The position numbers were made by a program, and so were the translations under genes. From Astrocystis sublimbata (Eukaryota > Ascomycota > Sordariomycetes > Xylariales > Xylariaceae), in contig JAJNNY010000015.1 in assembly GCA_022453515.1 (NCBI GenBank), positions 372,001 to 436,000 of the forward strand: DNA of 64,000 nucleotides, written 5' to 3'. The notes beneath the pieces are model-generated. The model saw only the letters and a list, made by a program, of their open reading frames with translations. It had not been told where the DNA came from and ran no database searches. Below, one piece after another: positions 9,485 through 60,434 of the stretch (its first letter is position 1; each line of letters begins with the position of its first letter).

Positions 9485-9886
9485 ATGGTTTCCAACGCAA
9501 CCAACAAGCCCAACATCAAATGGTCCATATTGGACCGCCAGATAGTTGATGGCCAACTAAATCCCGCCCTGCTCGCCATAGGAACCCGCGGGTACCAGAT
9601 CCAGTCAAAAGTCCTGCGTATACCCGACAGATGCGGCATTTTCTCGGCCGGTCCGCCTCGCGCTTTGGTCTACGAAGCCCGTACTTTCATTCTCGCCTAC
9701 TGGGCCTTGATCTACCTAGGCGTGACATTCACATTCTTGACTTGCCCATTCAGCAAAATGGGAAAATTCAATGCTTTAATGACTGCTCTATTCTGGGCAT
9801 CTTTCCTGGCAACGCTAGTTGTCTTCTATGCTGCAGTAGTGTTCGCACCGAAGAACTCAGAAGATCAGAAGATAAGATTGGATTAA
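9485..9886 (+). CDS. Small two-helix membrane protein, unknown
   Basis: 133 residues. Two hydrophobic segments are clear, at about 66-88 (FILAYWALIYLGVTFTFLTC) and 97-120 (LMTALFWASFLATLVVFYAA), joined by a short loop, with a charged C-terminus (KNSEDQKIRLD). The N-terminal 60 residues are soluble. I do not recognise a family. Codon composition, the absence of stops and the preceding TATA-like box with a leader intron favour a real gene. The neighbouring genes are unrelated. Confidence 0.5.
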   Translation: MVSNATNKPNIKWSILDRQIVDGQLNPALLAIGTRGYQIQSKVLRIPDRCGIFSAGPPRALVYEARTFILAYWALIYLGVTFTFLTCPFSKMGKFNALMTALFWASFLATLVVFYAAVVFAPKNSEDQKIRLD

Positions 9887-11046: not shown

Positions 11047-11650
11047 TCAGTTCCTTCGTTTCTTGAATTTTATCCCTTGGGTGTTTATCTGAACCCCAAC
11101 AACACTTTGCATGACGACCGCACTCTGAGAGGCGTTCACGGGAGTTCTGATACCGTCTCCAAATGTTGCTTGATCAGCCGTAATCTGTTCAAGAGTTAGG
11201 AGTGGATGGCAAGCACATATGTCTAAAAGAAGTTCACAAACAATCGCTTCACTCTCTTCCCTTTCGATCTCTGTCACGCATAGAATCAGCCAGTTGTACA
11301 ACAATACTCCGGTTATGCGAGCAAGTCTCCGCACGAACCAAACTCAATTGCCCCTTGATTCTGCACGTTTTTGGCCACGACTGAATCCTCCACGTTGCCT
11401 TGGATTTCAATTTGGCATTGGGTAATAGTAAGGCGAGAGACTCGTTTCTGCAACACCCGTCAGTAAGTAATAGTAAAAGTCAATAAGGGAAAAAGCAGGT
11501 AATAGGTACTTCAGTGTGGGTACGTGCTTTGGAGAGTATGCCTTGCTCCAAAGTGGCCCCGTATGGACCAGTTCCCTTCAAGTCATTCTGGGGCTTTCCT
11601 GTCCTTGCTGTTTGGACTTGAGTTTGGGTATACGATGTTGCCGAAGCCAT
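11047..11650 (-). CDS. Small protein with two amyloid-like motifs (putative signalosome partner)
   Basis: Exon 1 is 11650-11510 (47 codons, start MASATSYTQT), followed by a 62-nt intron with a clear CTGAC branch site. From 11447 the frame encodes a motif (residues 60-84) that begins IEIQGNVEDSVVA and ends NQGAIEFGS. Unspliced, it stops at 11313, giving 91 residues. A 68-nt intron (11338-11271) would instead extend it in frame to 11047 (157 residues), ending in a second motif-like segment, QSVVGVQINTQGIKF, before KKRRN. The first motif aligns with the C-terminus of the neighbouring hydrolase and the second with the N-terminus of the nearby NLR. The N-terminal 47 residues look disordered and no effector domain is seen. 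It is transcribed divergently from the hydrolase with 361 bp between the ATGs. The exon 2/3 join is uncertain (weak GTTCGT donor), so both forms are possible. Confidence 0.5.
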
Positions 11651-12011
11651 GATGTGCAACTTTATTGTGGGGATGTGAAAAAAAAATCGAGAAACCGTAC
11701 CCAACCGGAGTATAAAAGCGTCTGGAGACTTCATGTGGCAGACTGGGAACGGCTCAGGGGTGTGATGGTACAGCCAATAAAGCACAGACGATAAGCGATG
11801 CTCAGCCTGCATGACAAGAATCATATTAGGCATTCTTACATGTGAAGGTGATATGCGCTGTACTTTTGTGGCGTTGCTTAGGCTTACTTCTATCCAGCCT
11901 GCCGCACGGAAAAAAGATTCGTCAGCGTAAAGTCCTTGCAATATACCCTCCTTCAATACCGTCCTCCCTTCGTCCTTTTCCGGAAGTCAGTCTATATCTA
12001 ATCTCAAAACA
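11651..12011. promoter_or_regulatory. Short shared promoter between small motif protein and hydrolase
   Basis: 361 bp separate two divergent ATGs. A TATAAAAG on the plus strand near 11711 points toward the hydrolase. Co-regulation of the pair is inferred from the arrangement only. Confidence 0.4.
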
Positions 12012-13262
12012 ATGATATTCAAACTGAGGAAGGAAGGAAGGTCCCTCGACGATAACCGAAAAGTGACGAAGGGGGCGCTAGTAATCAAATCAAAATGTGG
12101 TATCAAAGTTCTTCATGAGCCTTCTGACGCCATAGTCGAGTATGTCACCCCCATCCTGTGTTTCAAATGTATCCTACTCCGTTAGGCATCAAGCTGATGA
12201 TCGGTCCAAGCCTCGTCTTCGTGCATGGAATTACAGGACATCGGGACTACACCTGGTCCGCGAACCAGAATAGCGAACCCTGGCCAAAACTCATGCTACC
12301 TACCAGGATACCTGAGGCTAGGATCCTTACCTTTGGATATGACGCCTCCGCCATGGCTTTTTGGCGAGGCATCTCAGAAAACAGTATCAGCGACCACGCT
12401 AGCAACCTTCTCTCGACGCTGTCGTGCTTCAGAAGCAGTGCTGTAAGTTTCAGCTTTTGCATCGGGACATGTGTTCTCTTATATAGACCTAATTAGTACA
12501 GTCTTATTCACACGAAGTCAGGAATTTAGACCCATTATCTTCATCGCACATAGCCTTGGGGGGCTAGTAGTCATGGATGCGCTGCTTTCGTCGCGCACCA
12601 GTTCGGAACCGCATCTGAGGCGAATTCTGGACTGCGTTCGAGCTATCCTATTTCTAGGAACCCCGCACTACGGGGTAGCATTGGCTGACACCGGTCGAAG
12701 GCTCGTAGGCCTCGTCAGTCTGACGGCGGCTAAAACCAACATGAAGATAGTGAGCGTGCTGCAGAGAGACTCGGAAGTCCTGTCCAGAATTCAGAAGGGG
12801 TTTCACGAATTGCTGCGCTCGCAGCAAAGGGATCGTACGCATGCGCTAGAGATCACCTGTTGCTACGAAGAGCTCCCGCTTATAGGGAACACCGTGGTCG
12901 TTCCTAGGGAATCTGCCATTCTTCGCGGGTACTCTGCGATTGGTATACATGCCGACCATAGGGGCATTGCGCGATTCGCATCGGCAGACGATCCAGGCTT
13001 CATTAGCGTGCTCGGAGAGCTCCGCAGATGGACGGATAAGGTGGCGTATGCAGATGATCACCACGACAAGGAATTGTGGGATATAGAGGGGAAGCAAAGT
13101 CACGATGTACTTTGTGGATGGGAATGTAAAAGAAGAGGGAATGATGAGGGATGCAGGGACGCCAGCGCCGGGGCTATTACGATTTGGGGAGATGTCACCA
13201 AGTCCATCATAGCGAATGGAGACCATGTAATTCACGGCAACCTCACATTTGGAGGCTCATGA
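12012..13262 (+). CDS. SesB-like alpha/beta-hydrolase with C-terminal amyloid-like motif
   Basis: Three exons: 12012-12139, 12211-12442, 12522-13262; 366 residues. Exon 2 opens with LVFVHGITGHRDYTW (oxyanion-hole region) and exon 3 has AHSLGG with nucleophile S131, followed by FLGTPHYG; this is the DUF676/SesB lipase-like fold common in fungal NLR systems. A candidate catalytic His lies in HADHRGIARF. The last 32 residues are unlike the rest: ITIWGDVTKSIIA, then HVIHGNLTFGGS ending the protein. In the Podospora and Nectria ses loci, SesB proteins carry such C-terminal prion-like tails and are activated by an NLR. The NLR at 14456-18000 converges on this gene. Membrane-lipid hydrolysis during programmed cell death is the expected role, inferred from the family. 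Confidence 0.78.
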
Positions 13263-14455
13263 TTTTGACTAGGGTGTTTTGGGGAGGTCGTTAATTTGGG
13301 CAGCCTGCAGGTGGCAGATATACCTTTCAGCTTATGTATGCGTTGGCAGCTATGTGCAGCTGTATCTTGCCTCGCTGTTGCCTACTTCAAATCATGCATA
13401 TCGAGTCTGTTAAGTGGCACTGTGGTTTCTGCAAAGAAGACAGGCAGCGTGTGGCTTATCGTAGCGAGGGCAACCGAGATGTCCAGTCTCTGGCCGGCTT
13501 CGTTTGAACTTTGCTCCTGGTGCAGCCTGCATGATAAAGCTGGGCGGGAAATTGTCAATGTGTCCTTGTGTACTTAGTAATATTCAAACCGAGAGGCCTT
13601 AATACCCCGATACGGAGATGCTTCAGAGTAAATTGGTCTATTCTACATGTAGCAACGTGGAGTAACAAGGTGAACCGAGAAGATGTTGTCAATAAGTATT
13701 GACTTTCAGGTCGTAAGATTGTTTCGCGCGTAGAAGTTCTCCATTTGGTGCTAGTTAATTGAGCCATGTTTATGCGCAATTAAGTTTTTCAAAGTTGTTG
13801 GGGGCGAGTTGTCTGTCGTATGTTGGCTGTCTCTCCTCTTTAATATTTAGGTAGAGTGAAGCAGTCTGCTAGAGTTAGGTTCCTCCTTAGGTGCCTAGGT
13901 ACTTAACAGCGCTATTAGTTTTCGCTGTTTGACTCATTTGGTAGCGCTGTTTGTTAGCTGGCCCACTCACAAACATGTTGCTTTACTAAGGCTAAGGTTA
14001 CCTGTTTGAAACCCGTACAGAGCTGAAGTTATACTATAAGCCCAGAGGCAATAAGTCGTGTCCCTCGGAGAAATCACATAATAAGATCCATCTAGCAGGT
14101 GAGGGCGTGAGGTTACGGCGCGGAGAGCCGGGGGCGGCTCGTGTTCAGGGGGCAGTAGTGAAGCACTCTGCTAGGTTCGTTGCCTAATAGCGCTGTTGGT
14201 TTTCGCTATTTGGCTTATTTAATAGCTTGCTATGGACCTACCTAGCTGCTACAGGGGCTTTGCCCCAACTTGATGCAGTGCAATCACCTTGCCTATCTGT
14301 CCAGGCCCCAGGGCTCATTCATCCTCTCTCTTTTCCATCCCCAGCACAAAACAATTACATGGATAACTTGCCTCATATCGAATTTGCGACTAGGTAGCAT
14401 TGTATATTGCATAAAACAACTATCTCTGCCTCTCGGCATTGAAATGGTCTCCTGG
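13263..14455. other. Intergenic between the convergent hydrolase and NLR
   Basis: No gene. It carries two diverged copies of a repeat (see separate entry) and a CCTAGGTACT element at 13894-13903. Confidence 0.5.
13858..14235. repeat. Two short repeat copies differing mainly by transitions
   Basis: One copy is at about 13858-13955 and the other at about 14159-14235. Both begin GAAGCA(G/C)TCTGCTAG and share a roughly 42-nt core around AGCGCT(A/G)TT(A/G)GTTTTCGCT. Within that core the differences I count are all C/T or A/G. This looks like remnants of a repeat degraded by RIP-type mutation, though the copies are very short. Confidence 0.45.
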
Positions 14456-17400
14456 CTAGACTCCGTTGATTGAAATTTCTTGATATCGTGATTCGTGACC
14501 ATAGCGTCTTGCCACCTGCCTTGGGGTTCTCCCCTTAGCGTTGATCAGAGTCTCATCTGCATGCCCTTTACTTAGTAGGGCTTCAATAATGGCCGATTCG
14601 CCGCTTGCAGCCGCCTCGTGCAATGCCGTATTCCCTTTTTTGTTCGCCAGGTTCACATCGGCATCTTTCGAGATCAGAAACAAAACAATTTCTCGGTGCA
14701 AATGTATCACAGCTCGATGCAGTGCTGTGCAGCCTTCACGGTCAACGGCATCAATCTTGCTTTTGCCGTGGTACAGACCGACCACCAAATTCAAGTTTCC
14801 GGAGGAAGCAGCTTCATGTAGCGCTGTTCGCCGTTCGTGGTTTCGCATGCTTACTAGTTTTGGCACCCATAGGTAGAGTGATGAGACCACTTCTTCGCGA
14901 CCCTCTACCACTGCCAAGTGTAGCGCGATTTGTCCTGTATTGTCCTTCAAGAATGGATCTGCCCCTTTCTGGAGTAAAAGCCACACAACCGGATTATGGC
15001 CTTTCATGGCAGCTATGTGGAGAGGTGTGTACCCAAGGCGTGTTTGAGCATTGATATCAGCACCACTTTCCAACAGGAGCCATACTATTGTTTTGTTACG
15101 GAAAGATTCCCACCCATCAATTGCCACGTGGAGCGGTGTTTGTGTCTTAGAATCCTTCAGGTCGACTTTGGCTTTAGCTTCGAGCAGCGCATACACTGCT
15201 TTCCCGTGACCATAGCGGATTGCGTCTGTCAAAGCTGGTTCCCCATTCGAATCTATAGCGTCGAGATCAACTCCTCTCTCGGCCAAAAGGGTTATAATTT
15301 CATGTTTCCCTTCCCGAGCTGCCCATGACAATACTGTCCAGCCGTCTTTACAGCCGAGGGAGGCATTCTTTCGAATCAGCAGTCGCAAAATCTTGTTATT
15401 TCCTTTGTGGGCGGCCCATCGCAATGCTGTCCAACTATCCTTATCTTGAGCATCAATATTGGCATCGCTTTCGAGCAGTATGCTCACGAGGCCCTGTTGC
15501 CCGTTAGAAGCCGCCCACCGAAGGGCTGTCCAGCCACAGTTGTCTTCGATCTGGGTGTCTGCTCTTCTGGAGTCCAGGATCATTCTCACAGATTCGTGGT
15601 CGTTATTCATCGTTGCTTTATGCAGAGCTGTCCTCTTGGCGATATCCTTTGTATCCAAATCTGCGCCCCCTTCAATCAATACTCTCAAAACATCCGCATG
15701 GCCATAGAAAGCGGCCCAATGCACGGCTGTCTCGCCGGTAGTTGTTTGCGCGTTCAACACGAAGACTCTTTTCTTGTCAATCATGGCTTTGGCAAGCCTG
15801 GAAAGGTTGAAATAAGCGACCAGGTGTAGTCCTGTTACCTTTTTCTCAGTTTTGAAGCGAGGTTCCGTCATGGCCTGTAAGGCATTTGAGAGTTTGGCTT
15901 CATCTTCCAGAAACTCGCAAGCCTTTTGGCGTACTTGTCCCAGGGATGACCGCGACACATGACAACCCCAGTAGTCTGCCGCATAGTTGAGTAAGGGGTA
16001 CTTCTTCCCTCTCGCTTCCACTTCACTTTCAGATTGAGATGTTGGGCGTATGTTGGCGAGAGAAAGATATGTCAGGCATACCTCGGCCATCTCTGAATGA
16101 AAGCGTCTAGGCTCCGGTATGCGGTTCTTTTCGAGATATCCTCGGGCTGTGTAATGAGCTAGCCGTACAATCCTGGTCACTGGATCCACGACAACGATGC
16201 CCGTGCAAACGGCCGTGACACTCTCCTCGGTGATTGCGATGCCGTCCATGATCCCAATATTACTCACTTTCACGCTCACAGCTTGGAGAAGCTCCTTAAT
16301 CTTCAACGGTCTCTCAGCAAGGACCAACCAACCGAGGCACCGTAATGCCAACGCTTTTTTTGGTGGGTCTAAATGAGCTATCCTCTCCAGAGTTCTTTTG
16401 TAAACGTTGTCTGGTGTTTCCGGTAGCGCTTTCACACCATCGTTGAACTCAGATGCGGGCATCGTCAGAAGGAAGTCCATGTGCAGTTGCGCCAGAAGAA
16501 ACCTGAATGCACTTTTAGCTTACGTACATTTCACGTAACGCAAAAGAAGGAAAATAAGGATAGAAAAGGGGCTGTAATTAGAGGTGTCTGTTAAGCCTCA
16601 CATTCCTTTAGAGCGTTCAATGATGTGATCGAAAACCTTTTTTTCGGAATTCTGCTCCGAGAACATCGATTGAATATCGCCACGATCTGCAACTCGGCTG
16701 TGAAGGTATTTTCGAAGATCTTCCCGCTCTGCCTGAACAAGGATTTGATAATGACTCTGTGTATCTCTTTCTATACCCAAATTTTGTCTTGTAGTGAATA
16801 GCACGTGGGTATTTGGCGGGAGGGAGCGGAGGGATCGCAAGAGTCTCGGCATTGTGGTGTTCTGAGTGTCGTTCCAGCATTCATCTAGAGCATCAATAAC
16901 GATATACACACTTGTGAGCTTTTTTATCTCTGAAGTTAGTATCTATTTAGCATTAGCCGTCACGAGCCATACTTATAATTACTCCATCAAGTGAAGAGGC
17001 AATGGACCAGATAACATAGAGGGTATATCACCGAATAAGTTTTAAATCACAAACCTTGAGGTATTCGTCAGGAGTCGGGGTCATTTCTTTCTTTTTCCAA
17101 GTTGTGAAAGCCGCATTTGCTTCTTCAGTAAAGCTGTTATTATGCCCCCGCACCAGCTGTGCCAGTAAGGACGAGTACAGGTTTCGTAACGAATGTCTTT
17201 CTCGGTCTCGAAAGTCAAAGTAGATGAAAAGACATTTACCATCGCTAGAGCGTAGCTTGTTACGGAGGTGTTCAATCACAACCGATCTGATAAATCAGTT
17301 CTTAGTATTCTCGGTCTTTTTGGGGGCATTGGGCAAACATACGCAAGGACAGTCTTCCCAGCACCGACTTCAGAAATGATTAGCTAACTGAAAAGCTGAA

Positions 17401-18000
17401 ACAGGAACAGCGCCACTGAAACCATCTCAAAGTGCTTACGTATGCCAGAACACAATAAAGTTCGGGGCTTCTCATCTTCGGAGTTTGCCTGCCAGTCCCT
17501 CCATAACTTGAACTCGGGCTTATTTAAAACCCACTTCCATGTGTCTGGCGTCTTCTTTGCTACTTCGTACGTGTCGCGATGTTTTTCATCAAAATTGAAT
17601 GGTGAACAGTTGGCCAGCCACTTCGGGATGGTTGGGCAAGCTTCAGACCCGTCTGTTGTAGTAAGTACTCAGGAAATCTCACGATTTTGTGAAAGTGACG
17701 AACAATAATGATGATGATCAATTTCTATCTTCCATGATTAGATATGGGATATTTGAATGAGAACTTTGACTTAGAGGCGGTTTAACCCCCTAGACCAGCA
17801 GTTTACTCACTGTACGTGATACCTCCTTCATTGTTAATAGTATGGCCGATGACTGCTTGGTGAGAACGATCTGCTCGAATCGAATCATCGGCACCTTGTG
17901 ATCTGTCTGAGCATGGCTCGGAGCCCAATGAGGATGACGGCCTGCAAGAATCAGTGATTGGAATTACTCTGATTTTAGGTTGTGTAATAGAACTTTACAT
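14456..18000 (-). CDS. NLR: N-terminal amyloid-like motif, NACHT, ankyrin repeats
   Basis: Seven exons: 18000-17999, 17941-17811, 17652-17440, 17367-17343, 17286-17055, 16927-16602, 16502-14456; about 991 residues. Residues 29-47 carry QAVIGHTINNEGGITY then NGS, the position where NWD2-type NLRs hold a prion-like motif. Next come WLANCSPFNF and an all-helical linker, the P-loop GILGAGKT (114-121, split over a 25-nt exon) and Walker B YIVIDALDEC (209-218). A winged-helix-like stretch follows to about 530, then roughly 13 ankyrin repeats to the C-terminus. There is no other N-terminal effector domain, so signalling through a separate effector is expected. The start codon is split by the first intron (AT at 18000-17999, G at 17941). 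The 17054-16928 intron boundary is the least certain: the unspliced frame hits a TGA at once. Confidence 0.82.
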
Positions 18001-23629: not shown

Positions 23630-26600
23630 ATGAGGAGTGAGCCTATTGCAATTGTGGGCAGTAGTTGCCGCTTTCCTGGCGGCGCCACTTCGCCCTCCAA
23701 GCTCTGGGAACTGTTAGAGAAACCTCGAGATGTCGTACAGAAGATCCCAGCGTCACGGTTCAATACCAAAGCATTTTACCACTCAAATAGCCAGCATCAT
23801 GGTGTAAGTTGAGTCACCTACGCGCACTCGTTTGGCAGTCAGTTTTCGGACGTCAACTCATTCATGGATTCTGGTAACAGAGCACGAACACCCGGCACGC
23901 TTATCTTTTAGACCAAGACCCGCGTCTCTTTGACCGCGACTTCTTCTTCATCAGCCCAAAGGAGGCTGAAGCCATGGATCCTCAGCAACGCGTGCTACTC
24001 GAGACAGTGTACGAAGGTATTGAATCGACGGGTTATTCGATGCAGCAGCTTCGGGGATCGGCCACCGCCGTATTCGTGGGATGTATGAGCTTCGACTACC
24101 AATTTACAGCCATACGCGGTTTTGAGACTCTTTCGCAGTACCATGCTACTGGCACTGCTGCTTCCATTTTAGCCAACCGTCTATCGTACTTTTACGACTG
24201 GACAGGGCCCTCGGTGACTATCGATACTGCGTGCTCCTCTTGTTTAGTAGCTCTGCACCAAGCTGTCTCTGCTCTGCGGAATAGAGAGGTTACGATGGCG
24301 GTTGCGGCAGGCTCAAACCTGATTCTTGGCCCGGAGCCGTTCGTGAGCGAATCCAAGGTATGTTGTATCGGTACCCTCGATCGCGGGCCTGGAATCTTAA
24401 GCTGATCGGTCGTGGGATCAGCTCAATATGCTGTCACCGAATGGTCGGTCTTGTATGTGGGATGCCGGTGCAGATGGGTACACTCGAGGAGAGGGTTGCT
24501 CGGCCATTTTCCTCAAGACGCTCAGCCAAGCGATTGCAGACTGCGACACGATCGAATGTATCGTTCGCGAGACAGGCGTAAACTCGGATGGCAAGACGCC
24601 TGGAATCACAATGCCGAGCTCTGAGTCGCAGGCGCGGCTCATTCGAGACACTTACGCAAGGTGCGGCCTCGATCCTACTCTTGAGTCAGATCGCCCACAC
24701 TTCTTCGAGGCTCACGGCACTGGCACGCCTGCTGGAGACCGTATGTATCTTATTATGCACTTGTTTTCCGATGTGCATAGTCGCTGATTCACACCAGCTA
24801 TCGAGGCCCAGGCCATCCAGAAGGCCTTCTTTCCCAATGGGGGTAACGAGCAGCTTTTTGTTGGCAGCATAAAGACTATCATTGGACACACAGAGGGCGC
24901 TGCGGGAATCGCCGGCGTGCTCAAGGCATCGCTCGCAGTTCAACGTGGCAAGATTCCGGCAAATCTCCATTTCAATCAGCTCAACCCCAATATTAAGCCG
25001 TTTTACGCGAATCTGCGTGTCCCGACCGAGGCGAGCCCTTGGCCTGTCATCCCTGAAGGAACACCCCGCCGGGTGAGTGTGAACAGCTTCGGCTTCGGGG
25101 GTACAAATGCCCATGCCATTATCGAGAGTTGGCATGGCTCTGGTGCTCTTGCAAACGGCTATGCCATGATCGGCTGCGAGATAAATGGTCATAAGCTGAA
25201 TGACAAACGCCCAAATTCTGAAGCTTTGAACGGCGTCGTACCCAATGATGATACGACTAGAGGTGAAGTGCCCAAGCCCCAGAGCGCCGGACCTTTCGTT
25301 CTGTCCGCCAACTCCAGCACAGCCCTGGCAGCAAGTGTCGAAAGGCTAGCGAGCTACCTTCGCGCGAATCCCGAAACAAATCTCGACCAGCTTGCTTATA
25401 CTCTGTTCCGCCGGACAGACTTTCCATTCCGAGCCGCCTTTTCTGCCACACGTGTAGAGCAACTTATCGACAAGTTGGAGGCGGGCATTAACTCCCTTAA
25501 AAACAGCTCCCGTATAGCGAACATTCCCGAGACCTTGCCACCCCGGATCTTGGGCATATTCACAGGCCAAGGGGCACGATGGGCGACGATGGGCAAAGAG
25601 CTCTACGGAACTTCGACTATGTTTCGCGACACCATAGATCACATGCAAAAAAGCCTTGATTCGCTTGATATCGAGGACCGCCCTGATTGGAGACTGATCG
25701 ATCAGCTTGAAGCGCCCGCCAAGATGTCGCGCGTTAGCGAGGCCGCTGTGTCGCAGCCACTCTGCACGGCGCTCCAGATTGGCCTGGTCGAAGTCCTGCG
25801 TGCTGCTGGCATCGAATTCGCCGCTGTCGTCGGGCACTCGTCCGGCGAGATCGCCGCTGCTTATGCCGCCGGATATCTCGATGTGACGGATGCCATTCGT
25901 ATCGCATACTACAGAGGTGTACATGCCCACCTCGCCAAGGGTCCGGGCGGTAAGCGCGGCAAGATGATGGCCGTCGGCATGTCCCTGGGGCAGGCGACGG
26001 TATTCTGCGACGAGTATGACGGAGCGATCACCGTGGCAGCTAGCAATTCCCAGACTAGTTGCACTATAGCTGGTGATACCGAGGCTATTGATGAGGCTCA
26101 TGCTCGCCTCAGCGAGAACGGCATCTTTGTCCGTGTCTTGAATGTAGACACGGCTTACCACTCATCCCACATGAAGCCATGCAGCATCCCGTATCTCAAG
26201 TCCTTGAAGCAGTGTGGGATCACAGTGCATAATCGTCGAAAACAATGCAAGTGGTATTCAAGTGTCTGGGGGGCGAATGGTCGTATCCGGTCATTTGATC
26301 AGGCTGACAGTCTCCTTCTCGAGGGTCAATATTGGGTCGATAACATGACGCAGACGGTGTATTTCAAAGAAGCACTTTCACGGGCCCTGAACGAAGATCA
26401 GTGTTTTGACCTTGTTCTGGAGGTTGGCCCGCACCCGGCCCTCAAGAGCCCTAGCTCCGAAACAATTCAGCAGTTGACAAGCTTGTCTCTTCCATATTCA
26501 GGTATTTTAAAACGTGGCCAAAATGCCGTGGAGTCTTTCTGTGATGCTCTGGGGCTTTTTTGGAAGTTGTTTCCGTCGCCATGCGCATCAATTACTTTCG

Positions 26601-29600
26601 ATAAGATCCGTCATGCTTTGTCGAATAGTGCGCCTCGGAGATTCACCGTCCTGAAAAGTCTCGCAGCCTACCCCTGGGACCACCGTCATCTTATCTGGAA
26701 AGAGTCGAGATCCTCTCGTATTTTTCGTGCACCAGATCAAGCACCCCATGAACTCCTGGGGAGCGCTGTTGTGTACGGGGACCGAAGCAAGCGCGAAGTA
26801 CATTGGAAGCAACTGCTCCGATTAAGCGAGTTGCCTTGGCTTGGTGGTCATCGGATCCAGGGCGAAGTTCTGTTTCCAGCGTCTGGGTTTCTCTCAATGA
26901 CATACGAGGCCGCTATCCGCCTAGTCGAGAATCAGCAGTCGCTGCAACTTGTCGAGCTACACGATATTGCGATAGCTCGAGCTATGCGTCTCGAGGAAGA
27001 CTCATCGGGCCTAGAGGTTGTATTCGTCGTTCGCGTTACGAGCCAGACAGATGAATGCATAACAGCCGAGGTGACTTGTTACAGCGACCCTGTTGACGCA
27101 GTTCAACCTTTGGACGCCCCTCAAGCCAGACATACGTCCCATTTCACCGGCAGTGTACGACTTTGGCTAGGCGATTCTAGCCCAGATGCCTTGCCTCGTC
27201 GGGCGGAACCGCTGCTTCCCATGGACTCCTTGGACATGAAGCTTCTCTACTCAAGCTTAGCAAAGGAGGGCTTCAACTACACCGAGCCGTTCCAAGCCAC
27301 GTCAATGCTCCGAAGGCTGAACCGTGCCGTGGTGACCTTGCCTTCGGCTCCGGAAGGCTCCTCGATCCGCGCATGCATGCATCCCGCATCAGTTGATACA
27401 GCTTTCCAAGGCCTTCTGGCTGGCTTCTCTTTTCCTGGGGACGGTCGTCTTGGGAGTATATATCTACCGACGCGCATCGACTGTGTCAGGATTAGCATGA
27501 GCACAAACGGTAATTCCAATCCCATCTACACTGCTGACGCGAACGTGACTTCTGTTAGCAAAACCAGCTTTACGGGGAATGTGGACCTCTTCGACGCAGC
27601 AGACGGACGCACAGACGTACAGATAAGGGGCATACAGTTGACAGCTGTTGGCCAACGCCGAGATCCGTGGCTTTACGCTGGCACGACGTGGGTGAGAGAT
27701 ATCGGCTATGGCATTGAGCCTGGTAAGGAAGCCAGGCTTTCGGAACAAGAGCAGGTACTGTATGAGCAACTCACACGCACATCTTATTTTTACTTGCGAC
27801 AGCTCCGCAAAAAGATCTCGAAACAGGAGATCGTGCTCATGGGTAAGCACGAGAAACACATGATGACTTGGATTCTGGAGCATCTGCTGCCCGAAATCGA
27901 GGCTGGAGAGCACCCCGAAGTTCGGCCCGAGTGGAAGGATGACACGCTGGAGATGGTGCAGCATTGGCGTGACAGCCAATCGTCCGACAACAATGACATG
28001 AATATCCTCCACGCTATGGGTAAGAATCTGGTCAGCATTGTCCGTGGCATCACTCCTCCGTTAAAGGTGCTTACTCAAGACGGCATGCTCGACCGGCTCT
28101 ACGTGGAAGGCCTCGGTTCCAAAGATGGGAACGTTGATCTCGACAACATGATCAGACAGCTTGCACATCAACACCCACGTATGAATATCATCGAGATCGG
28201 AGCCGGCACAGGAGGCACCACGCGAGCTGTCGTAGATGCCTTAGGGAACAACTATGCATCCTATACATATACAGATATATCCACCGGATTCTTTGACAAT
28301 GCCCGTGCTGTGCTCGCGCAGCACATCGATAAATTCAAGTTCAAAACACTGAATATTGAGAACGAGCCGACCGATCAAGGGTTCATGGAAGAGGCTTACG
28401 ACCTGGTCGTTTCGTCAAACTGTTTGCATGCGACAGAATATTTACACGAAACTCTGCGCCACTGCCGAAAGCTTCTCCGACCAGGCGGCCGCTTGGTATT
28501 GCTAGAGATCACCAAAGATTTCTTGCCGACGCAGCTGGTCATGTCAACGCTTCCTGGATGGTTCAGAGGTATGAATGACGGGCGGATTTGGACGCCGACG
28601 GTCGGCTTGAAGCGATGGGACGAACTGTTGAAGGCCAACGGCTTCTCAGGCGTTGATGTCAGTTCAACGCCTTCATTCTGTTCCGTCATCATCAGCCAGG
28701 CGGTCGACAAGACTATACTGACCCTTCGCGAACCACTTGCAATGGTCTCAGCGGATAATACGCTAGTAGGCGATATCGTGATCGTCGGTTACGGTGTGAT
28801 CGCCAACCTGGCGTCTGAGACCCAGGCAGTGCTTCGGGCTGTTTCCACCAAAGTCACCGTGGTTGCTAGTCTCGAAGGAGTCCAGGTACCTAGGCAGGCG
28901 AGTGTGCTGTGTCTCAATGACCTTGACAGCCCAATATTCCGCGAAATGAATGAAGCGAGATTCAGAGGCTTGCAAGAGGTCATGGAGAAAGCCAAGTCCC
29001 TATTGTGGGTGACGAAAGGTGCCAAATCAGGCAATAGTCCCGAAGCCAATATCACCATTGGTCTTTCAAGCACATTGCGCGCTGAGCGCATGGACTTTAG
29101 GCTGCAGTTCCTCGATGTTGATGATCTGTCATCTTTGAACCCGTCTATGCTGGCCGAGATGCTTCTCCGCCTAGCTCTCGTAGATCCGTCAGAACCTGGC
29201 GATATGTTGTGGACCCAGGAACCCGAGCTTGTGCTCAAAAATGGCGCCATTTATATACCTCGAGTGCTATCTCTGGTCAAGATCAATCGACGATCCGCCG
29301 CAAGAATCCGAAATATTGCGGACCGAACTAGCCTCAAGTCAGATAGCACGGCCGTAATACTCAGTAAATACCAGGGCGGTTTCGAGCTAGAAGCTGTTCC
29401 AGTGTGGAATGCTAAAGAAGAAGAACTTGATTTACAAGTTACGGCTTCCTCCCTGTTTCCTTTAACTTGCGACGGTGATGCACAACTGTTCGCCTGCATC
29501 GGTCGTGAATTGGTATCGGGCGACAAAATTCTAGCACTTTCTAGCATAAACGGATCCCGCGTAGAAGTGGGTGGCGATCGTCTATTGTTTCGCTGGCAAG

Positions 29601-31294
29601 ACAACAAGTCAGACGGGGATGCCGCGGCTCAGCTGCATCAATTCCTGGTACGTGTCCTCGCCGCACGTCTGCTCGGCGGTTTGGAAGGTTCGGTGTGGGT
29701 GCATGGCGCAGCTGAAAAGATCAGAGAGGCCATTGATGAGGTCGCCCGGGATCAGGGCATCGCCATTTACCAGAGCACGTCGGATAGGTCAAGAACTTCG
29801 GGCGTCGATTTCATCCACCCTTACTTGAGGGAAGAAGACCTGCAGAAAATGCGACCGGGGAAGGCGAAGAGCTTCATCAATCTAGCAGGGGAGCAGAACG
29901 GTGCCCTGATTGCGCTGATCCAACGAACCTGGCCTGACATGACCTACGTAAGCGGAGCGGCCGATGATCTGGATTCGGGCTTAGACCTTATTGAGCTTCA
30001 AACTCTGGCCAAAAAGTTTCAACCGTCTCTGCAAGACTGCTCGGAGGGTGTTGCGGTTACCGGCATCGACCAAATTTCAAGCTTGAAAATTGAAGATGCT
30101 AGCCCTACGGCTGTTGTTGATTGGACTACCAATGACATTGTCAGCACTTCGGTCATCGCTCTTGAACACCGAGGGCTCTTCTCGTCGGATAAGACATACC
30201 TCCTGTGTGGCATGACAGGAGACTTGGGGGTCTCGGTATGCCTCTGGATGATCGAAAACGGAGCCCGAAACATAGTACTCACTAGTCGGAACCCCAACAT
30301 ATCCCCCGCTGTGTCCGAATACCTGGCGCGTAAAGGAGCAAACGTCCGACTAATGGCTGTCGACCTTGTAGACATGGAGTCTCTTCGATCTGCCTGTGCC
30401 GAGATAACCTCCACCATGCCGGTCATCGGCGGAGTCATGAACGCAGCGATGATCCTTCGCGATCGCCTGTTCCAGCATCTGTCTTGGGACGATTTCTACG
30501 CCACATTAGCGCCCAAGGTCGTTGGGTCCCGAAACCTCGACGAGTTGTTTGGAGAAGAACAGCTGGACTTCTTTATCTGTTTCTCGTCGACGACATCAAT
30601 TGTCGGAAGTATAGGACAGTCTGCCTACGCGGCTGCAAACCACTACATGGTGATTCCTGTACAGGGAAGACGGCAGCGCGGCCTGGCGGGTTCCGTGGTT
30701 CATATCGCCATCCTGACGGGCTTTGGTTACATTTTCCGTCGGGACGCGGACCATGCTGAAACGATAAATAAAGCGATTCTACCGCGATTCGACAGACAGT
30801 CCGAGACTGACTTGCACGAGATGCTAGCGGAGGCTGTGGTCTGCGGACGCGCCGGCTCGGGACAACCTGCGGAGTTGATCACGGGAATAAGGACCACCTT
30901 CCAGGGCGAGTGGCGAGACGATCCCCGTCTATCGTGCTACAGTGGACAGCAGCAAGCCCAAGATGACACCAGCACACAGCACAATACGGGCGCAATCAGC
31001 GTTCAGTCGCAGCTCGCAGTCGCCGAAGACCATGCTGAGTGTCATGCGATATTGGAGCAGAGGTTTGGGGTCGCGCTTGGTAGCATGCTTGAAATCAAGC
31101 CCGAGACCCTAGACAGCAAACTTCCCGTGGCCAATCTGGGCATTGATTCCCTGGTGGCCATACGTATTCGAGAATGGTTTTTGAAAGAGATGGGTGTCGA
31201 TGTGCCCGTTCTGAAGGTCATGTCGGATAAGTATACTATGTCGCGGATGTGTGATGATGTGTTGGTGGACTGGCGGAAGAATACCAAAACGTAA
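23630..31294 (+). CDS. Highly reducing type I polyketide synthase (KS-AT-DH-MT-psiER-KR-ACP)
   Basis: Four exons: 23630-23803, 23881-24357, 24422-24740, 24798-31294; 2488 residues, full length for the family. The KS triad is C176 (DTACSS), H315 (EAHGTGT) and H354 (GHTEG). The AT has GQGARW near 578 and S671 in GHSSGE. The DH has H1008 ([10 protein letters not shown]) and D1190 (DTAFQ). The C-methyltransferase SAM site is IGAGTGGTT near 1458. The KR has GMTGDLG near 2128 and Y2267 (SAYAAANHY). The ACP phosphopantetheine serine is S2441 (GIDSL). Between MT and KR there is no NADPH-binding ER motif, only a degenerate ER-like stretch (about 1900-2050), as in LovB. There is no thioesterase or condensation domain after the ACP. 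It therefore needs a trans-ER, the gene divergently transcribed next to it. The product is probably a methylated, partly reduced polyketide released by another factor. Confidence 0.95.
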
Positions 31295-33477
<2,183 letters not shown>

Positions 33478-48254: not shown

Positions 48255-49652
48255 TCATTCCACACACGTCGCAAACCTCAAAAACTCCCCATCGGCCTTC
48301 AGCGCCCGCGTATCATCCCTGCCCAACCTGACCGCCACACCAATATTGCCCTCAGGCGTCTTAGGCATGGGATAGATGAGGCCCGGCGGGCACTCGAAGA
48401 AGGGGCGCTTGACCATGCGCGGGCGGCCGAGCTTGAGGCCGAAGTCGAGCGCGTACGAGTCCTGGTTCGCCCACGAGCTCAGCAAAATATCCTTGGCCAT
48501 GTCCCCGCCGGCGAGGAAGCTGATGAACCGCCGCCCGTCCGGGTTGCGGCGGATATGCGTCGCCAGCGAGCGTCCGTGGTACCCCAGATTCGACGTCTTG
48601 GGGTCTACGGCTGCGCGGAAGTTGGCGGCTAGCGCGCCTAGTGGGCTGTGAGCGACCTCCTCCATCGTGAGGTCGTGGTGCGTCATCTCCTGGATGAAGC
48701 CTGGGTGGGTGGGGGTGATGCCTAGGTAGCGCCGGAGGTCTACGGCTCGGGCGAATACGGTTCTTGTGGCCCCGTCGAATTGCGGGAGCCGCGCCCGCGT
48801 TACCGACTGCCAGATGAAGGCGGTGAGTGCGTCGTCTGTTGTTATGTACTCCGTTCCGGGCGGGAGCGTCTCGGTAGCTTTTGCCTTGAGCTCGTTCAGC
48901 GCCGCGGCGGAGAAGTTGGTGTAGGACCAGACGCCGGGGTCGGCCGGGAGAGGGGCGGGGGTTCTGCCGGGGCCGGGGAGGGAGGCGTCCATTTTGACGA
49001 TGTTGTACTCGAGCTCGGGACCTGGTGTCCAGGAATCGTCCAGGACTGGGATGGCGTTTTCCGGAGCGAGGTTTCCGAACTTCAACTCCTCTTCCGTGAA
49101 AGACTCGTTCCTGCAGGCTTTTGAGAACAACGACATGATCTGGGCCTGGCCTATACCGTCCATAGCCTGATGGTGGCCGCTGAAAGTGAGTATCAAGCCG
49201 CCGTTGATGATTGTCGCTTTGAGCGTGAAGACTTCTTCGGGCACCGAATCGCTAGGCACAATGCGGGTGACCCGAGGGGCGACTATAGATTCTTTCAAGG
49301 TGGCCATGGGGAAGCCAGACTCCTGCAATGCATCCCACGATGGGAACGAGGAGTCGTTCCGGAGATCCTCCACAATGACCCGAGGCTTGGCCTCCAGCGA
49401 CTTGATCTTGAAAGTCCCCGTGACACCCTCTGCCGCACCCTCGCACACGATCTGGCCCGTCACCCATGGGAAGGACTTCCCGAGGCGCGAGGCGCCCTGG
49501 TCCAAGAGGCCAGCGATGTCCTCCACGCGATAATCACTCGGTACCGCGAAACAGAAGCTTATGGGAGTATATCCACGGACTAGTCTCTGTCCGTAGAGAT
49601 CGAGCGTGATGTCAAGCTCGGGCGGGCTGGTTGCTGTTGATGTTGTGGCCAT
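48255..49652 (-). CDS. BAHD/trichothecene 3-O-acetyltransferase-like acyltransferase
   Basis: 465 residues, intronless. The catalytic HxxxD is H161-QAM-D165 in SGHHQAMDG, and the structural DFGWG motif appears as DFGLKLG near the C-terminus (before RPRM). The length and two-domain layout fit the transferase family PF02458, which moves acyl groups from CoA to hydroxyls or amines of secondary metabolites (trichothecene 3-O-acetyltransferase is the best-known fungal member). No signal peptide; cytosolic. The DNA is notably GC-rich compared with its flanks. It lies 17 kb from the PKS, so acting on the same product is only a possibility. Confidence 0.88.
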   Translation of the reverse strand: MATTSTATSPPELDITLDLYGQRLVRGYTPISFCFAVPSDYRVEDIAGLLDQGASRLGKSFPWVTGQIVCEGAAEGVTGTFKIKSLEAKPRVIVEDLRNDSSFPSWDALQESGFPMATLKESIVAPRVTRIVPSDSVPEEVFTLKATIINGGLILTFSGHHQAMDGIGQAQIMSLFSKACRNESFTEEELKFGNLAPENAIPVLDDSWTPGPELEYNIVKMDASLPGPGRTPAPLPADPGVWSYTNFSAAALNELKAKATETLPPGTEYITTDDALTAFIWQSVTRARLPQFDGATRTVFARAVDLRRYLGITPTHPGFIQEMTHHDLTMEEVAHSPLGALAANFRAAVDPKTSNLGYHGRSLATHIRRNPDGRRFISFLAGGDMAKDILLSSWANQDSYALDFGLKLGRPRMVKRPFFECPPGLIYPMPKTPEGNIGVAVRLGRDDTRALKADGEFLRFATCVE

Positions 49653-52600
49653 GTTGACTGACTCTTAGCTTATATGGGTGCCGAGTACAGAAGGGCCGAA
49701 TATATGTTGAGGGTTTGTCGAGTCGCGATCGAAAGGCTCAGTAACATATATCCCCAAACCTCTCTTCATGAGTAGTGGAAGAGATTTCAATATTTTATGA
49801 AATCTTGATACCGAAGGTATTATGTACAGTCATCCATCTAATCCCACTGCATCATTCATATAGTGGAGGCCCTAGCCCACTGCGATCTTACCTTACAGTG
49901 ATCTTAGTGCTTGACAGCGGTTTGTGTCAAACCTGCATTGGCTGCCAAGACATCCAGTTTTTCCATTTGTTAGCATTTCAGGATTTCGAAACCGATTGGG
50001 AAAACCCAACTTTATGCGGAAATTCATCCTCCTCTGCACTCGTTTTGCTGATGGCTCAGCAAGATGCCATCGGGCGTCTGCTTGTCTGGAGGCAGATGTG
50101 CTACGATGCTGTTGCTGGTCGGACTTGCCTTTTTTGGGAAAAGGGACTTCGGATCCACCTATTGCATCACCTTCTTTAATAGAAAGGACGGTGTCAGATG
50201 CTGAGAATATGATCGAAATACTGAAAAGCTGTTTGATAAGATAAAGTGTTGTAGAAAATGAACAGAGAAAATGCTCTGCCTTTTGCAATTGCCCGCCTAC
50301 TTTCATCTAAGAACTGCAGATAGATAGAGCTATTGATTCATTGGTAACCTTGGTTTAGAGCACGTGGCCGTAGAGCATGGCTTAGTCATGATCTGGCATG
50401 AATTTCCTCTTTTGGTAAGGCGATTGCTCTATTAATAGGTAAGTAGTTTCTGGGGATGCCAATGCCTTCATCCTACGGTTGGTCGAGGAGAAGTGTACTA
50501 TAGCATGATGCACTTCAATATGATTTGTCTATCTAAATTGTTGAATCGGAAAGTGCTCATACTACCTATGCGAGCCTTTCGCCTTTTACGAGAGAACTCA
50601 AGCAGTCTTCTCTGGCGGGTATAATCACATGATTGTTGCTAAATCCGAGAGCCCGGGAGCCCTATCTCGAGGATGCTTACAATTAGCACTTAGTCTACAG
50701 GCCCCCTCCCGTCTACAGGGACTCGACTTACCTTACGCTGGTAACATGGCACGTGCAAAACACGGTGGACGTTGAAGCGCGAAAAACAGATTGCCAAAAG
50801 ACTACTAGGTAGATTCTAGTAGATAAGGGACCGGGGGTTAACGTGCCTAGGCTCGCCTAGGTCGACTAGTGTCCGACATTGGCGTTAGGATTTCGCATTG
50901 GCAAGAACCCCTGATGATGATGCGATTGAAGGAAAGCCCTGGCAACTCTCTATCGCGAATTGCAGACAGACAACCTGAAGTCGTTGCCCGTGTGTGCTCA
51001 TTTGCACATTCGTCTATTCGTCAAATACTTGCTTAGTATATACTAGATATACATTGTAAAACGATTAGTCGGGACCATTCGCGATGGTTGGCTGTGACTA
51101 TGTACCTACCTTACTTGATTCCCTACTTGTCAGAATATCACACGACAACAACACAACCCTATTTCCTTCAACGACCTCTGGCTTCTCCCATCGATCGCGG
51201 CTTTTTCCCTTCAATCGCGGCCCGTTCTCGTTTACTATGATTTTCATGCCTCAGCTGTTCATGTGAAATCACGATGCTAGTTCCCCAGATTTGTACATCT
51301 GCTCCGAGTCTGGCCGAATCGAGCCTATACTCCAATCATCCTTAGCATGTGCCTCGTGCGCGGATCAGGTCCAGACGAGCGAATCACTCGATGCATGACG
51401 GTGGCGTAGAAAGCCACACTCTATGTCTGCTCCAAATGGAAAGCAATTATAGGAAAGCCGACGAGGTCGATCCGGCACAAGATGCGCTCGAGTGCAGAGG
51501 TGACAAAGTCATGATTGGCTCGGCATTGCTTCCCTCAACTCACCTGGCAACAGTCTGGCGCACTCGACTGATTGGCCAATCTGTCAAGGTTACACCAAAT
51601 TGCAACTCACGTGTCGCCTCTTACAGATTGATGTTCAGATTGCTCCGCTAAGGTGAATTTCATCTGCATGGCGTAGACGAAGCGATGGGGACGACGCTAC
51701 CTACCCCACGGGCGGAGGCCGAGCATCGTGGGGCACCACTACAGTAGGGAACTGGATACTGGATATACTCGTCGTCCTCAGCCCCCTATAAACGACAAGT
51801 CGAAGGTGAAGATGATCGAGGGCGACCAAGAAATGCACGGTTTTTTCGCGGCCATCTACTTGGACATGTTAGCGTAGGATCTGTCACCGAAGCACCAGGA
51901 TGAGATGTTCTCTATCTCGATAGAGCCAAGGACATGGGAGCCTCAAGGCTAGAAGCTGCGCAGGGGTGCTGGACAAGTTGTCAATGTTGTCAACGAAGGC
52001 AAAAAGCCGAGGTGGCCAATCACAGGCCGCCAACTTCCCACAAGAGGCAACGTTGGCAAACCACCAGATCGACCACGTTCCGCAACGTCGCCGTCTGATT
52101 GGCTGTGCCGACACTCCAGCCAATGCCAGAGCTGGAAGTGGTCGCGTGCTCAATCGACGAGTCTGGATCTTGAGACGCACGAGTCCCGAACACGACGCAG
52201 AACTGACTTGCACGCACCCTTATCACCACCAAAAATCAAAAAGCACCCAATATGGTTCTGGGTCCCTGCCATGTGCCGAGTCGCTCGCTCCGCCGCCCAC
52301 AGATCCAGCACCGCCTGCGAAGCTCGATAGCGTTACTTACCCCCGGCTTGGATGCCTGGGCCCTAGGATGAAGGGAAGCCCGACAATTACATCCCTTTCC
52401 CTTTAAACATTTACTGTCGCTGCCCGATACGAATTCCCAGCTGCTCAGTCAGACTGTGCATCCAACAATCACGACCATCCAGTGCCTTCGTTCATTGTTC
52501 AAACAATATTCGCCGGTTCCACAGCATCTGGAGTCGTCGTCGTATCACCTGCCCCTGTCTGTCGCGTGACACCTGCTCGTCCGAATTTCTCAACATCCAG

Positions 52601-57844: not shown

Positions 57845-59851
57845 TCAGCTCGTAAGCACGCCAGGCCAAAAGAAAACGACGTCTATTTCAGGACATCCAT
57901 CGTAGAAGCACAAACCATGAATCCAGCGCCGAGTAAGCAAACACGCCAATCCCCCCTCCTCCTCCTCATTATCGCACTCATAGTTAACCTCGAGTGACAC
58001 GTACCTGCCCTTGTCATTCGTGAGACCACTGTCATCCCCCGCAGCCCGCTCCCGCAAAGCCGTGAAAACATGCATGGGCATATCGTCGCGTCCGTAGTCA
58101 CCATCATCGTTGCCTACGAAGAAGCCAAAGCCCGGGCTGTGCTTATCGGGCATATAATCGGGCGCGTACACAATTAATCCGAACCATATTGGCTTCTGCT
58201 GACGTATCGCCGTTGCCAACTCCTTCGCCATGGAACGTTGGTAGGCCTGTGCGAAAGTGTGTGCATGTTTAGACGCGTCGTCAAACCCTCGGTCAAGGTA
58301 ATCAAGAAGTGTCTTGTGCATCTTGCTGGATTTTTCGCCAAAGCCACCAATTTTGTCGGCTAGGAGCCCGAGTATGCGACGGTCCTCCCCTTCTGGATCC
58401 CCGCCGTCTTTGGCCAGCGGAAGTTGGTCGGCAAACTCGGACGTATCGAATTCACCGTTGATGAACCATACATGGCCCCGTGTTTTGACCCCATAGCTCG
58501 TGAGCTCGACATCGGTGAATCTGCAGCTTTTGTTATAGGTAAGATTCCCCCCGGACTGCGGTCGTGGATATCGAGAAAATGCGTATTTTTCAAAAAAGTA
58601 AGTGATATTCCTTCCATCCGCAATGTGGGAACGCGGCTGGTCCCACCCATTTTCGAATATCTCTCCATTCAGGAGGAAGAGGGCCAGGATGGCAAGACTG
58701 ACACTCTGGTCGTCTTTCTTTGAGAGCTCTACACCGTCAAGGCGGACGGGGTACTGGCAGCAGTTCGCAATGATGGACAGCCGGTCCCACGGTACCCTGA
58801 GCTGTCGCCCCTCGATGTTTTTGACGATGTAAGGAGTCATGGATCTGTTCGCGGGATCGTCGAAGAAGGGAAAAAGACCTGGCATGGCCTCTTTCAATGG
58901 AAGGGTGAACCTCCCCGCTCGTTCCAGCACAAGCTTTCTTATTCTCTTCAACTGGTAATGCGGGGGGTCAAGCGGCAAGCAGAACGCACTCGCAGCCTTG
59001 TAGAAGCCAGTCGAGTCCAGGACGATCTCTCCAGGTATGTTCTCGAAGAGATTGCTGAATTCCTCAGTGTAGTCCTCGGGGGGGATGTTATGCGGTATGA
59101 GAAGTTTCATGCGTTCTCCGGCGCTGTAATCCTCTTGGTAAGTCCATGCGCGAGTCCACCATGGGTCGCTGACTATATCTTCGAGCAACTTGAGTGTTTC
59201 GCTTGTTCTCTGATCGGAGAGGTGTTCCGAATCAGCAAGTTGTCCGCTCATAAGCTCTGCCAGCAACTTGAGTTCCGCAACTGACAGTATTGGCTGGTAT
59301 AACAAGCCGATCGGGTGCTTGCTCCAGCTGTAGACTAGATCCATCGCCTGCAGTGCCTCTGTCTTCGCTTTCCCTTCTTCTTGCACGACGCAGTGTCTGT
59401 CGATCCAGAAGTACTGCAAGTCGCCGAAGTACTTCATGTACTTTCCCACCCTCTCAAACACAGAGTCCCGCACCTTCGATTCTAGAAAATCCCCGTTGTG
59501 CGATTGCACCGAATACTTGCCACATGGTTCTTTGAAAGATGCATCATGATCCCACGTATATGATACAGCAACATAGTCTCTCATTGCGACATCGGAGGTG
59601 TCGATACGTTTCCTTTTCAGAGTGGTTGGTCGGCAACCGGGCTCACGCCTCTCTGACCCTGCGCTTGTATCGGGAGTGTCGGTTCGAGAGGAGAAATAAA
59701 GGCAATCCAAAATTTTCATGAATTCTCTCGGTTTGCGGTGATGCACATTACTAGCCTTTTCAATATCCATCAGTGCATTGACCAGTGAACGCCCATGACG
59801 TTCCTTGATGGTGTCCATCGAATCGCTCAGGTCGTCGGCCATGGTGAGCAA
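57845..59851 (-). CDS. HET-domain (heterokaryon incompatibility) protein
   Basis: 668 residues, single exon. The HET domain (PF06985) blocks are in order: YVAVSYTWDH (93-102), the core YFWIDRHCVVQEEG (147-160) and WWTRAWTYQEDYSAG (231-245). Proteins of this family trigger cell death when incompatible hyphae fuse. The C-terminal 400 residues have no recognised domain and no repeats. An alternative start is M4. The core block has RHCVV where most family members have a Leu/Ile-Cys-Ile-Asn-Gln type sequence, so it is a divergent member. Together with the NLR module it makes this an incompatibility/immunity-rich window. Confidence 0.88.
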   Translation of the reverse strand: MLTMADDLSDSMDTIKERHGRSLVNALMDIEKASNVHHRKPREFMKILDCLYFSSRTDTPDTSAGSERREPGCRPTTLKRKRIDTSDVAMRDYVAVSYTWDHDASFKEPCGKYSVQSHNGDFLESKVRDSVFERVGKYMKYFGDLQYFWIDRHCVVQEEGKAKTEALQAMDLVYSWSKHPIGLLYQPILSVAELKLLAELMSGQLADSEHLSDQRTSETLKLLEDIVSDPWWTRAWTYQEDYSAGERMKLLIPHNIPPEDYTEEFSNLFENIPGEIVLDSTGFYKAASAFCLPLDPPHYQLKRIRKLVLERAGRFTLPLKEAMPGLFPFFDDPANRSMTPYIVKNIEGRQLRVPWDRLSIIANCCQYPVRLDGVELSKKDDQSVSLAILALFLLNGEIFENGWDQPRSHIADGRNITYFFEKYAFSRYPRPQSGGNLTYNKSCRFTDVELTSYGVKTRGHVWFINGEFDTSEFADQLPLAKDGGDPEGEDRRILGLLADKIGGFGEKSSKMHKTLLDYLDRGFDDASKHAHTFAQAYQRSMAKELATAIRQQKPIWFGLIVYAPDYMPDKHSPGFGFFVGNDDGDYGRDDMPMHVFTALRERAAGDDSGLTNDKGRYVSLEVNYECDNEEEEGGLACLLTRRWIHGLCFYDGCPEIDVVFFWPGVLTS

Positions 59852-60434
59852 GCCAAGCAGGCGCTGTGTATTTGAGCTGATACTTGGGAGAGGCTGTGAG
59901 CATCAGCACAAAGATTTGCTGGGTCGTGTTGCAGAGCCTATGTAAGAGCAGGCGAGGAATTGCGCGCGTAACTAAGTAAATTGTGAAAGATGGAAGCAGA
60001 GCGGCCATTCTATATCTTGACAGATGGCCCTAATCAATTGACAGCGGCTAAGGAAAAGAGTTTTTCCAACTTGCATATAACAATGCATATAACAACGCAA
60101 ACTAATTACGCTATATGCATTTCTAGCTTGTATCTAGCAGCCAGTCGGAATTTTGCAAATGCCTAGACCGCCCCCCATTTTTTATTAAAACATATGCGAG
60201 TATATGACCCTTGGAACCAACAGCCCGATAATCCTCAAGCCATCGAACAAGTGCCAACTCGTAACAACCAGCGCGCCCCTCCTCCCGGCCCACCCACACA
60301 TCAGTAGAATGGCGTTGTATGAAAAAGAATCGCAGCAGTTCTTTCTCGCACGTAGATGAGGCCGAGCTCCATTATCTATTGTCTCTTATCTAGTCGAGTT
60401 ATCTCCATTAGGTGTTGATCTTGGAATGAGTGTT
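59852..60434. other. Short intergenic region
   Basis: Promoter side of the HET gene and 3' side of the next gene. It contains a local duplication GCATATAACAATGCATATAAC near 60075-60096. No gene. Confidence 0.45.

Follow-up and report, generated by a model that had tools for sequence, protein, structure and literature searches.

A conserved C-terminal motif of SesB-like lipases at an NLR locus of Astrocystis sublimbata: a candidate further class of amyloid-signalling-type motif

SesB-like lipases are a frequent effector of fungal nucleotide-binding oligomerization domain-like receptors (NLRs). Lipases of this type with C-terminal PP or sigma motifs have been described beside NLRs (PMC3321046, PMC5485727, PMC9815663, PMC12261475, PMC12881547, PMC12258605, PMC8086366, PMC4518210). 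The families of fungal amyloid signalling motifs are few: a paper of 2025 puts their number at four and tests five (PMC12261475). Here, we analyze a locus in a stretch of 64,000 nt from Astrocystis sublimbata (Xylariaceae), hereafter the window, in which a small protein, a SesB-like lipase and a NACHT-ankyrin NLR are encoded side by side. The best-supported reading is that the C-terminal motif of the lipase represents a new class of amyloid-signalling-type motif, its amyloid nature being proposed by analogy with the described systems. A first-pass annotation of the window had suggested that all three proteins share one such motif; its three segments are present in the sequence, are spliced as it implied and belong to three real genes.

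In general terms, four described systems can be compared with this locus: (i) the sesA/sesB/het-eN sigma system of Nectria haematococca, in which likewise a SesB-like lipase bears a C-terminal motif, a second protein carries a motif too and the NACHT-ankyrin NLR next to them has a spliced N-terminus (PMC3321046); (ii) the HELLP/SBP/PNT1 PP system of Chaetomium globosum, where one NLR locus likewise holds a lipase and a second motif protein (PMC5485727); (iii) the HET-s/NWD2 and HRAM systems, which likewise place on an effector beside an NLR a C-terminal pseudo-repeat motif that is unfolded in the free protein, as is predicted here (PMC4518210, PMC3321046); and (iv) PUASM, also an effector-specific C-terminal motif beside NLRs (PMC9815663).

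The differences are equally clear. Unlike the sigma system, this locus has a third protein devoid of Pfam domains, lacks sigma patterns and offers no more than a candidate for the receptor-side motif. Unlike the PP system, the PP pattern is absent and no HeLo-like partner is recognized. Unlike HET-s and HRAM, the effector is a lipase and not a HeLo protein, the repeat spacing is 16 residues instead of a 21-residue unit, and the hydrophobic/Gly register does not fit. PUASM differs from the lipase motif in having a PNP_UDP effector, NLR-side copies and prion data (PMC9815663). Of the HET-s/sesB-type geometry claimed by the first-pass annotation, a SesB lipase with a C-terminal motif beside a NACHT-ankyrin NLR stands, and a motif passed from receptor to effector is not established.

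The lipase motif, its carriers and its class

The window lipase matches Pfam DUF676 (E 8.7e-8). The predicted model of its orthologue from Xylaria scruposa (P0002; mean predicted local distance difference test score, pLDDT, 61.6) shows a core resembling a hydrolase, for which the PDB gives 242 matches at E<=0.001, the template modelling scores (TM-scores) being only about 0.3-0.5 among the matches listed. Its residues 300-363 fall below pLDDT 50 in AlphaFold2 (AF2).

Among the 120 listed of the 208 lipase homologues that passed, 28 end in the lipase motif at 43-62 bits, and the next best protein reaches 3.8 bits. The motif profile was built from 24 of these 28 motif lipases; the four held out of it (P0016, P0021, P0024 and P0044) score 53-62 bits. 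DUF676 is found in all 24, and the serine motif HSLGG is invariant, which identifies them as SesB-like lipases. The motif itself is a gapless block of about 25 residues with the consensus ITIWGNVxKSxVVNGxQTIxGNLxF, and columns I6, G8, S13, G24 and F28 of the 24-row alignment are invariant. In this alignment, the motif (mean pairwise identity 0.58) is kept about as well as the hydrolase domain (0.61), unlike the linker between them (0.16); the linker varies from 27 to 78 aa, while the 25 motif columns contain no gap. Two marks of a fungal NLR-effector amyloid signalling pair are thus present: a conserved C-terminal motif after a variable linker in the effector, and, at this locus, an effector gene adjacent to an NLR gene.

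Motif carriers are named from Xylaria, Nemania, Monosporascus, Microdochium, Podospora, Chaetomium, Rhypophila, Halenospora and Acephala, genera which we take to be spread over several ascomycete orders. In a quick tree, which took in 108 of the 120 listed homologues and was cut before the tail, the 28 motif lipases and P0095 form one side of a branch with a Shimodaira-Hasegawa-like approximate likelihood ratio (SH-aLRT) support of 99; the gene model of P0095 breaks off inside the motif. Taken together, the conservation of the motif, its distribution over one clade and the variable linker show that the motif is old, conserved like the enzyme and tethered apart from it. The ending G-x-[IL]-x-[FY]-(x)-G-S, which the first-pass annotation had put forward as common to the three proteins, was chosen post hoc from them: its G-S is absent from most motif lipases outside the Xylaria/Nemania group and is lost in the NLR orthologue of Xylaria multiplex.

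Within the motif, columns 2-11 resemble columns 18-27 (a shift of 16), and 18 of 2000 column shuffles score as high. Solved structures gave no match to the motif profile at E<=10.

The class of the motif, which the first-pass annotation could not decide, was examined with 27 segments (the 24 lipases, the small protein and two NLRs) against the published patterns: (i) sigma (GxGxQFN or GGTQNINT repeats) matches 0/27 segments, and NACHT_sigma (PF17106) 0/24 lipases; (ii) PP (FxGx(x)NxGLQLxGxNxGxL) matches 0/27 segments, and Ses_B (PF17046), the PP model, 0/24 lipases; (iii) PUASM (FxGxGxQxxGxGxF) matches 0/27 segments, and the effector here is a lipase and not a PNP_UDP protein; and (iv) HRAM, or the full HET-s unit of 21 residues (N1, hydrophobic residues at 3, 6, 14 and 16, G10, G17 and N18), matches 0/27 segments, a relaxed HET-s form matching 1/27. 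PF11558, a model run without a positive control, is not among the families matched by the 24 lipases. At E<=1, these lipases match hydrolase families and isolated other families weakly, with no amyloid-motif family among them. Positive controls covered sigma and PP only: NACHT_sigma recognizes the related lipases P0071 and P0105, and Ses_B recognizes P0058. An assignment to sigma, PP, PUASM, HET-s or HRAM was consequently rejected on published patterns and Pfam models. A genome search for known motif families elsewhere gave no match, but neither did its built-in controls, so that the result is uninformative. In the literature searched, which did not include bioRxiv and most subscription papers, so that a prior description is possible, no paper was found that names the lipase motif. 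The lipase motif is short, is rich in Gly, Asn and hydrophobic residues and contains a 16-residue pseudo-repeat; in the literature searched, no class of this kind is described.

The small protein and the NLR island

The likeness of the small protein to the lipase motif does not depend on its neighbor. A profile of 23 lipase motifs, the window lipase being omitted, ranks the small-protein exon 2nd of 1998 six-frame segments of the window (E 0.021); in a four-protein test, the same profile gives it E 1.3e-4. Compared with the 24 lipase motifs (mean score), the exon is equalled by 0 of 1000 shuffles at either gap cost. The window lipase is the 18th of these 24 in likeness to the exon, which indicates that the small protein resembles the lipase family rather than the adjacent lipase: the X. 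scruposa motif is reached by 1 and 4 of 5000 shuffles (BLOSUM62, 11/1), and the window lipase by 85 and 122 under the same settings or by 42 and 57 at looser gap costs.

For the leading block of 13 residues, the first-pass annotation had counted six identities between lipase and small protein, with three further I/V or N/D pairs, and the count is correct. Among 74,584 ungapped 13-mers of the window, that of the small protein is the top non-lipase match to the lipase 13-mer (score 28, next 24); when only identities are counted, two other window 13-mers also reach 6/13. Codon positions 1, 2 and 3 of the block are identical in 6, 10 and 2 of 13 cases, a pattern expected of a long-kept protein sequence and not of a recent DNA duplication. 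By these comparisons, the small protein is a carrier of the lipase motif. It has no Pfam match at E<=1 and no candidate in a search of 5.8 billion proteins, and the genome of A. sublimbata holds a single copy of it (next match, E 0.24). In single comparisons, its second half gives a gapless alignment with the N-terminal island of the NLR described below, the E-values being 0.0055 (window NLR) and 0.024 (X. multiplex NLR).

The window NLR contains a NACHT-type domain (Pfam NPHP3_N, E 1.5e-21) and ankyrin repeats; no N-terminal effector domain is recognized by Pfam in its resolved part. The X. multiplex orthologue (P0121) shares 69% identity with it in the 307 aa compared. Near the N-terminus, an island (SIRAxxxHQAVxGHTIxNEGGITYxG) is strongly kept between the two genera, the preceding residues not being kept, and its position is where receptor-side motifs sit. 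It may belong to one of the unassigned NLR N-terminal classes, such as NLR17, 19, 20 or 34, listed in PMC9815663.

Within the locus, the island shows some likeness to both partners. The window lipase is the third closest of the 24 lipase motifs to the window NLR. Their comparison is reached by 65 and 111 of 5000 shuffles with standard costs; looser gap costs lower the counts to 11 and 15, a better result than that of the lipase-small protein comparison under the same costs (42 and 57); for the small protein and the NLR, the figures are 122 and 125 (standard) and 47 and 52 (looser). For sigma loci, it is reported that extensions of one cluster resemble each other more than they resemble their orthologues (PMC3321046).

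A possible switch and its alternatives

Our leading, still tentative, proposal is that the locus encodes a SesB-type lipase switched via its C-terminal motif, together with a small motif-only partner, the NLR being the likeliest trigger. It draws on the conservation, the clade and the pseudo-repeat of the motif, on the low-pLDDT tail of the X. scruposa model, on the copy in the small protein, on the SesB lipases of published NLR loci, which bear C-terminal PP or sigma motifs, and on the sigma motif of P0071 and P0105. The lipase motif would be unstructured at rest and would assemble with partners bearing the same motif, a cross-beta stack of beta-arches being the probable form; assembly would gather the lipase domains at a membrane and lead to cell death or growth arrest. 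The small protein could act as seed, relay or decoy, and the adjacent NLR could act by a diverged N-terminal motif or through the small protein. Amyloid nature, lipase activation, NLR triggering and cell death are all inferred, the first by analogy with those systems.

Several results weigh against this proposal, above all on the receptor side. In the four-protein test, the lipase-motif profile gives the window NLR E 0.24 and the X. multiplex NLR 0.18, and with the small protein added to the profile, the values are 0.045 and 0.032 for one sequence; hhalign of the lipase motif with the NLR pair returns a probability of 1.2% (P-value 0.042, 7 columns); and in the comparison with the 24 lipase motifs, the window NLR is equalled by 99 and 108 of 1000 shuffles (119 and 90 for X. 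multiplex). The three-way motif of the first-pass annotation holds for lipase and small protein, the NLR remaining a candidate that profile, hhalign and 24-motif shuffles do not support. Ranking the 1998 window segments by the small protein puts the NLR exon 10th, with the small protein itself included (E 9.4), and the window lipase against the X. multiplex NLR is equalled by 208-472 of 5000 shuffles under BLOSUM62. The likeness is nominal and confined to the locus; it vanishes when the profile, the average over the 24 motifs or the orthologous NLR is used, and a receptor-side copy of the lipase motif is unproven by these comparisons. A protein search with a chimeric motif/NLR query, which needed exact 5-residue words so that diverged NLR motifs would escape it, gave 159 candidates, of which one was of NLR length, namely the orthologue, matched via its NLR part. 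Codon bias is 0.02 in the coding frame of the NLR motif exon and 0.10 in another frame; nor does it tell the coding frame of the small exons from the reverse frame (0.06 vs. 0.07 in exon 1, 0.13 vs. 0.11 in exon 2). AF2 models of the isolated motif are uninformative (pLDDT 78.4 for the best model and 62-66 for the remaining four, predicted TM-score 0.29), and DSSP on the isolated-motif model gave nothing. Finally, an earlier survey searched the C-termini of DUF676, PGAP1 and Abhydrolase_6 proteins in nr of November 2019, and reported only PP, sigma, HRAM-type and PUASM motifs and one further PNP_UDP motif (PMC9815663). As it required at least three NLR-paired instances of a motif, one without a recognizable NLR copy would have been passed over. 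This explains how the lipase motif could escape the survey and, at the same time, speaks against NLR-side copies of it being common.

In a second, rather unlikely explanation, lipase and small protein interact through their shared motif, by homotypic assembly or by inhibition; the NLR would then be a neighbor without relation to them, its island being otherwise used. It agrees with the lack of a detectable relation of the NLR to the motif family in the profile, hhalign and 24-motif shuffle comparisons. Furthermore, the lipase-motif profile finds in the window, before E 0.3, only the small protein after the lipase, and a whole-genome search at E<=10 recovered only segments of the locus, the NLR and small-protein matches being self-hits of the query. 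However, two published amyloid systems show the same NLR-SesB adjacency (PMC3321046, PMC5485727); the resolved NLR part lacks a recognized N-terminal effector domain, yet keeps a conserved island there; and the lipase-NLR and small protein-NLR comparisons are nominally better than chance within the locus.

It is less probable still that the motif serves as a docking or targeting peptide without amyloid character, for instance a beta-strand added to a folded partner or a membrane protein. The uninformative prediction for the isolated motif and the mismatch with published amyloid-motif patterns would suit such a peptide, but the occurrence of one motif in two otherwise unrelated neighboring proteins suggests a self-type assembly, and the extreme C-terminal position, the variable linker of low model confidence and the SesB context mirror the sigma and PP systems. 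That the small protein is no gene at all, its likeness to the lipase tail arising by chance, is very improbable: the empty protein search, the uninformative codon bias and the low rank of the window lipase among the matches to the small exon speak for it, whereas the second place of this exon in the window at about 0.6 kb from the lipase, the shuffles against the 24 motifs, the codon-position pattern and the GT-AG intron speak against it.

A more far-reaching version of the proposed switch, which we regard as unlikely, combines a further amyloid-motif class in one SesB clade, spread over several ascomycete orders, with a two-step relay at this locus. In such a relay, the NLR would nucleate the small protein, whose second half is NLR-island-like and whose first half is lipase-motif-like, and the small protein would then template the lipase. 

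In its own right, a further lipase-borne class would give a testable handle on SesB lipase activation, as a simple C-terminal pattern that covers a whole clade. A motif-only relay protein, set between receptor and effector, would add a new component to circuits of this kind.

Gene models, other loci and neighboring genes

The start codons of the small protein and the lipase are divergent, with 361 bp between them. Lipase and NLR are convergent: the lipase stop ends at 13262 and the NLR stop lies at 14456-14458.

Table 1. Features of the locus, in window coordinates.
Feature	Position	Strand	Basis
Small protein gene, 91 aa	11313..11650	-	Spliced open reading frame; exons 11650-11510 and 11447-11313; one 62-bp GT-AG intron
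Small-protein motif IEIQGNVEDSVVAKNVQNQGAIEFGS	11334..11411	-	Lipase-motif profile rank, shuffles, codon-position identities
SesB-like serine hydrolase (lipase) gene, 366 aa	12012..13262	+	Exons 12012-12139, 12211-12442 and 12522-13262; Pfam DUF676
Lipase C-terminal motif AITIWGDVTKSIIANGDHVIHGNLTFGGS	13173..13259	+	Kept in 28/120 listed lipase homologues
NACHT-ankyrin NLR gene, 995 aa, the count starting at the first complete codon in the first of the resolved exons	14456..17940	-	Gene model, Pfam
NLR N-terminal island SIRADRSHQAVIGHTINNEGGITY, candidate receptor-side motif	17812..17883	-	Conserved in X. multiplex P0121

The lipase corresponds to the NCBI protein P0001 of A. sublimbata (100% identity over 276 aa), whose model begins at an internal Met; the 366-aa model restores an orthologue-like N-terminus. 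For the small protein, a longer N-terminus was considered, as the frame is open for 112 codons upstream, and was not adopted. The NLR has six resolved exons on the minus strand (17940-17811, 17652-17440, 17367-17343, 17286-17055, 16942-16602 and 16502-14456), and the five introns between them are all GT-AG. Candidates for its start-codon exon had poor donors or an exon of 5 nt, and none was convincing. Upstream of the conserved part, P0121 runs on as MTTPFDSEPNLDGFNDRQ, which makes a short N-terminus plausible for the window NLR as well; in the model of P0121, 50 further residues precede the Met of this segment.

In the genome searched (42.6 Mb, 189 contigs), 29 exon-wise matches to SesB-like hydrolases were found, three of them being the window lipase. 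Across 65 genomic loci, the motif profile strongly recognizes only the window lipase, although the loci extend 1.5 kb beyond each match and some C-termini may have been missed.

Other genes of the window include: (i) directly upstream of the locus, an open reading frame of 133 aa that has hydrophobic stretches (9485-9886, +) and no Pfam match at E<=1e-5; (ii) a heterokaryon incompatibility (HET) domain gene (57845-59902, -; PF06985, E 5.3e-17); (iii) a trichothecene 3-O-acetyltransferase-like gene (48255-49664, -; TRI-like_N, E 6.8e-52); and (iv) at 23878-33477 (+), a polyketide synthase (C-terminal part of the ketosynthase, acyltransferase, dehydratase, methyltransferase and ketoreductase) followed by a gene for an old-yellow-enzyme-type flavin mononucleotide oxidoreductase, probably a secondary-metabolite cluster. 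Upstream, the frame of the polyketide synthase is split into separate open reading frames, probably by introns.

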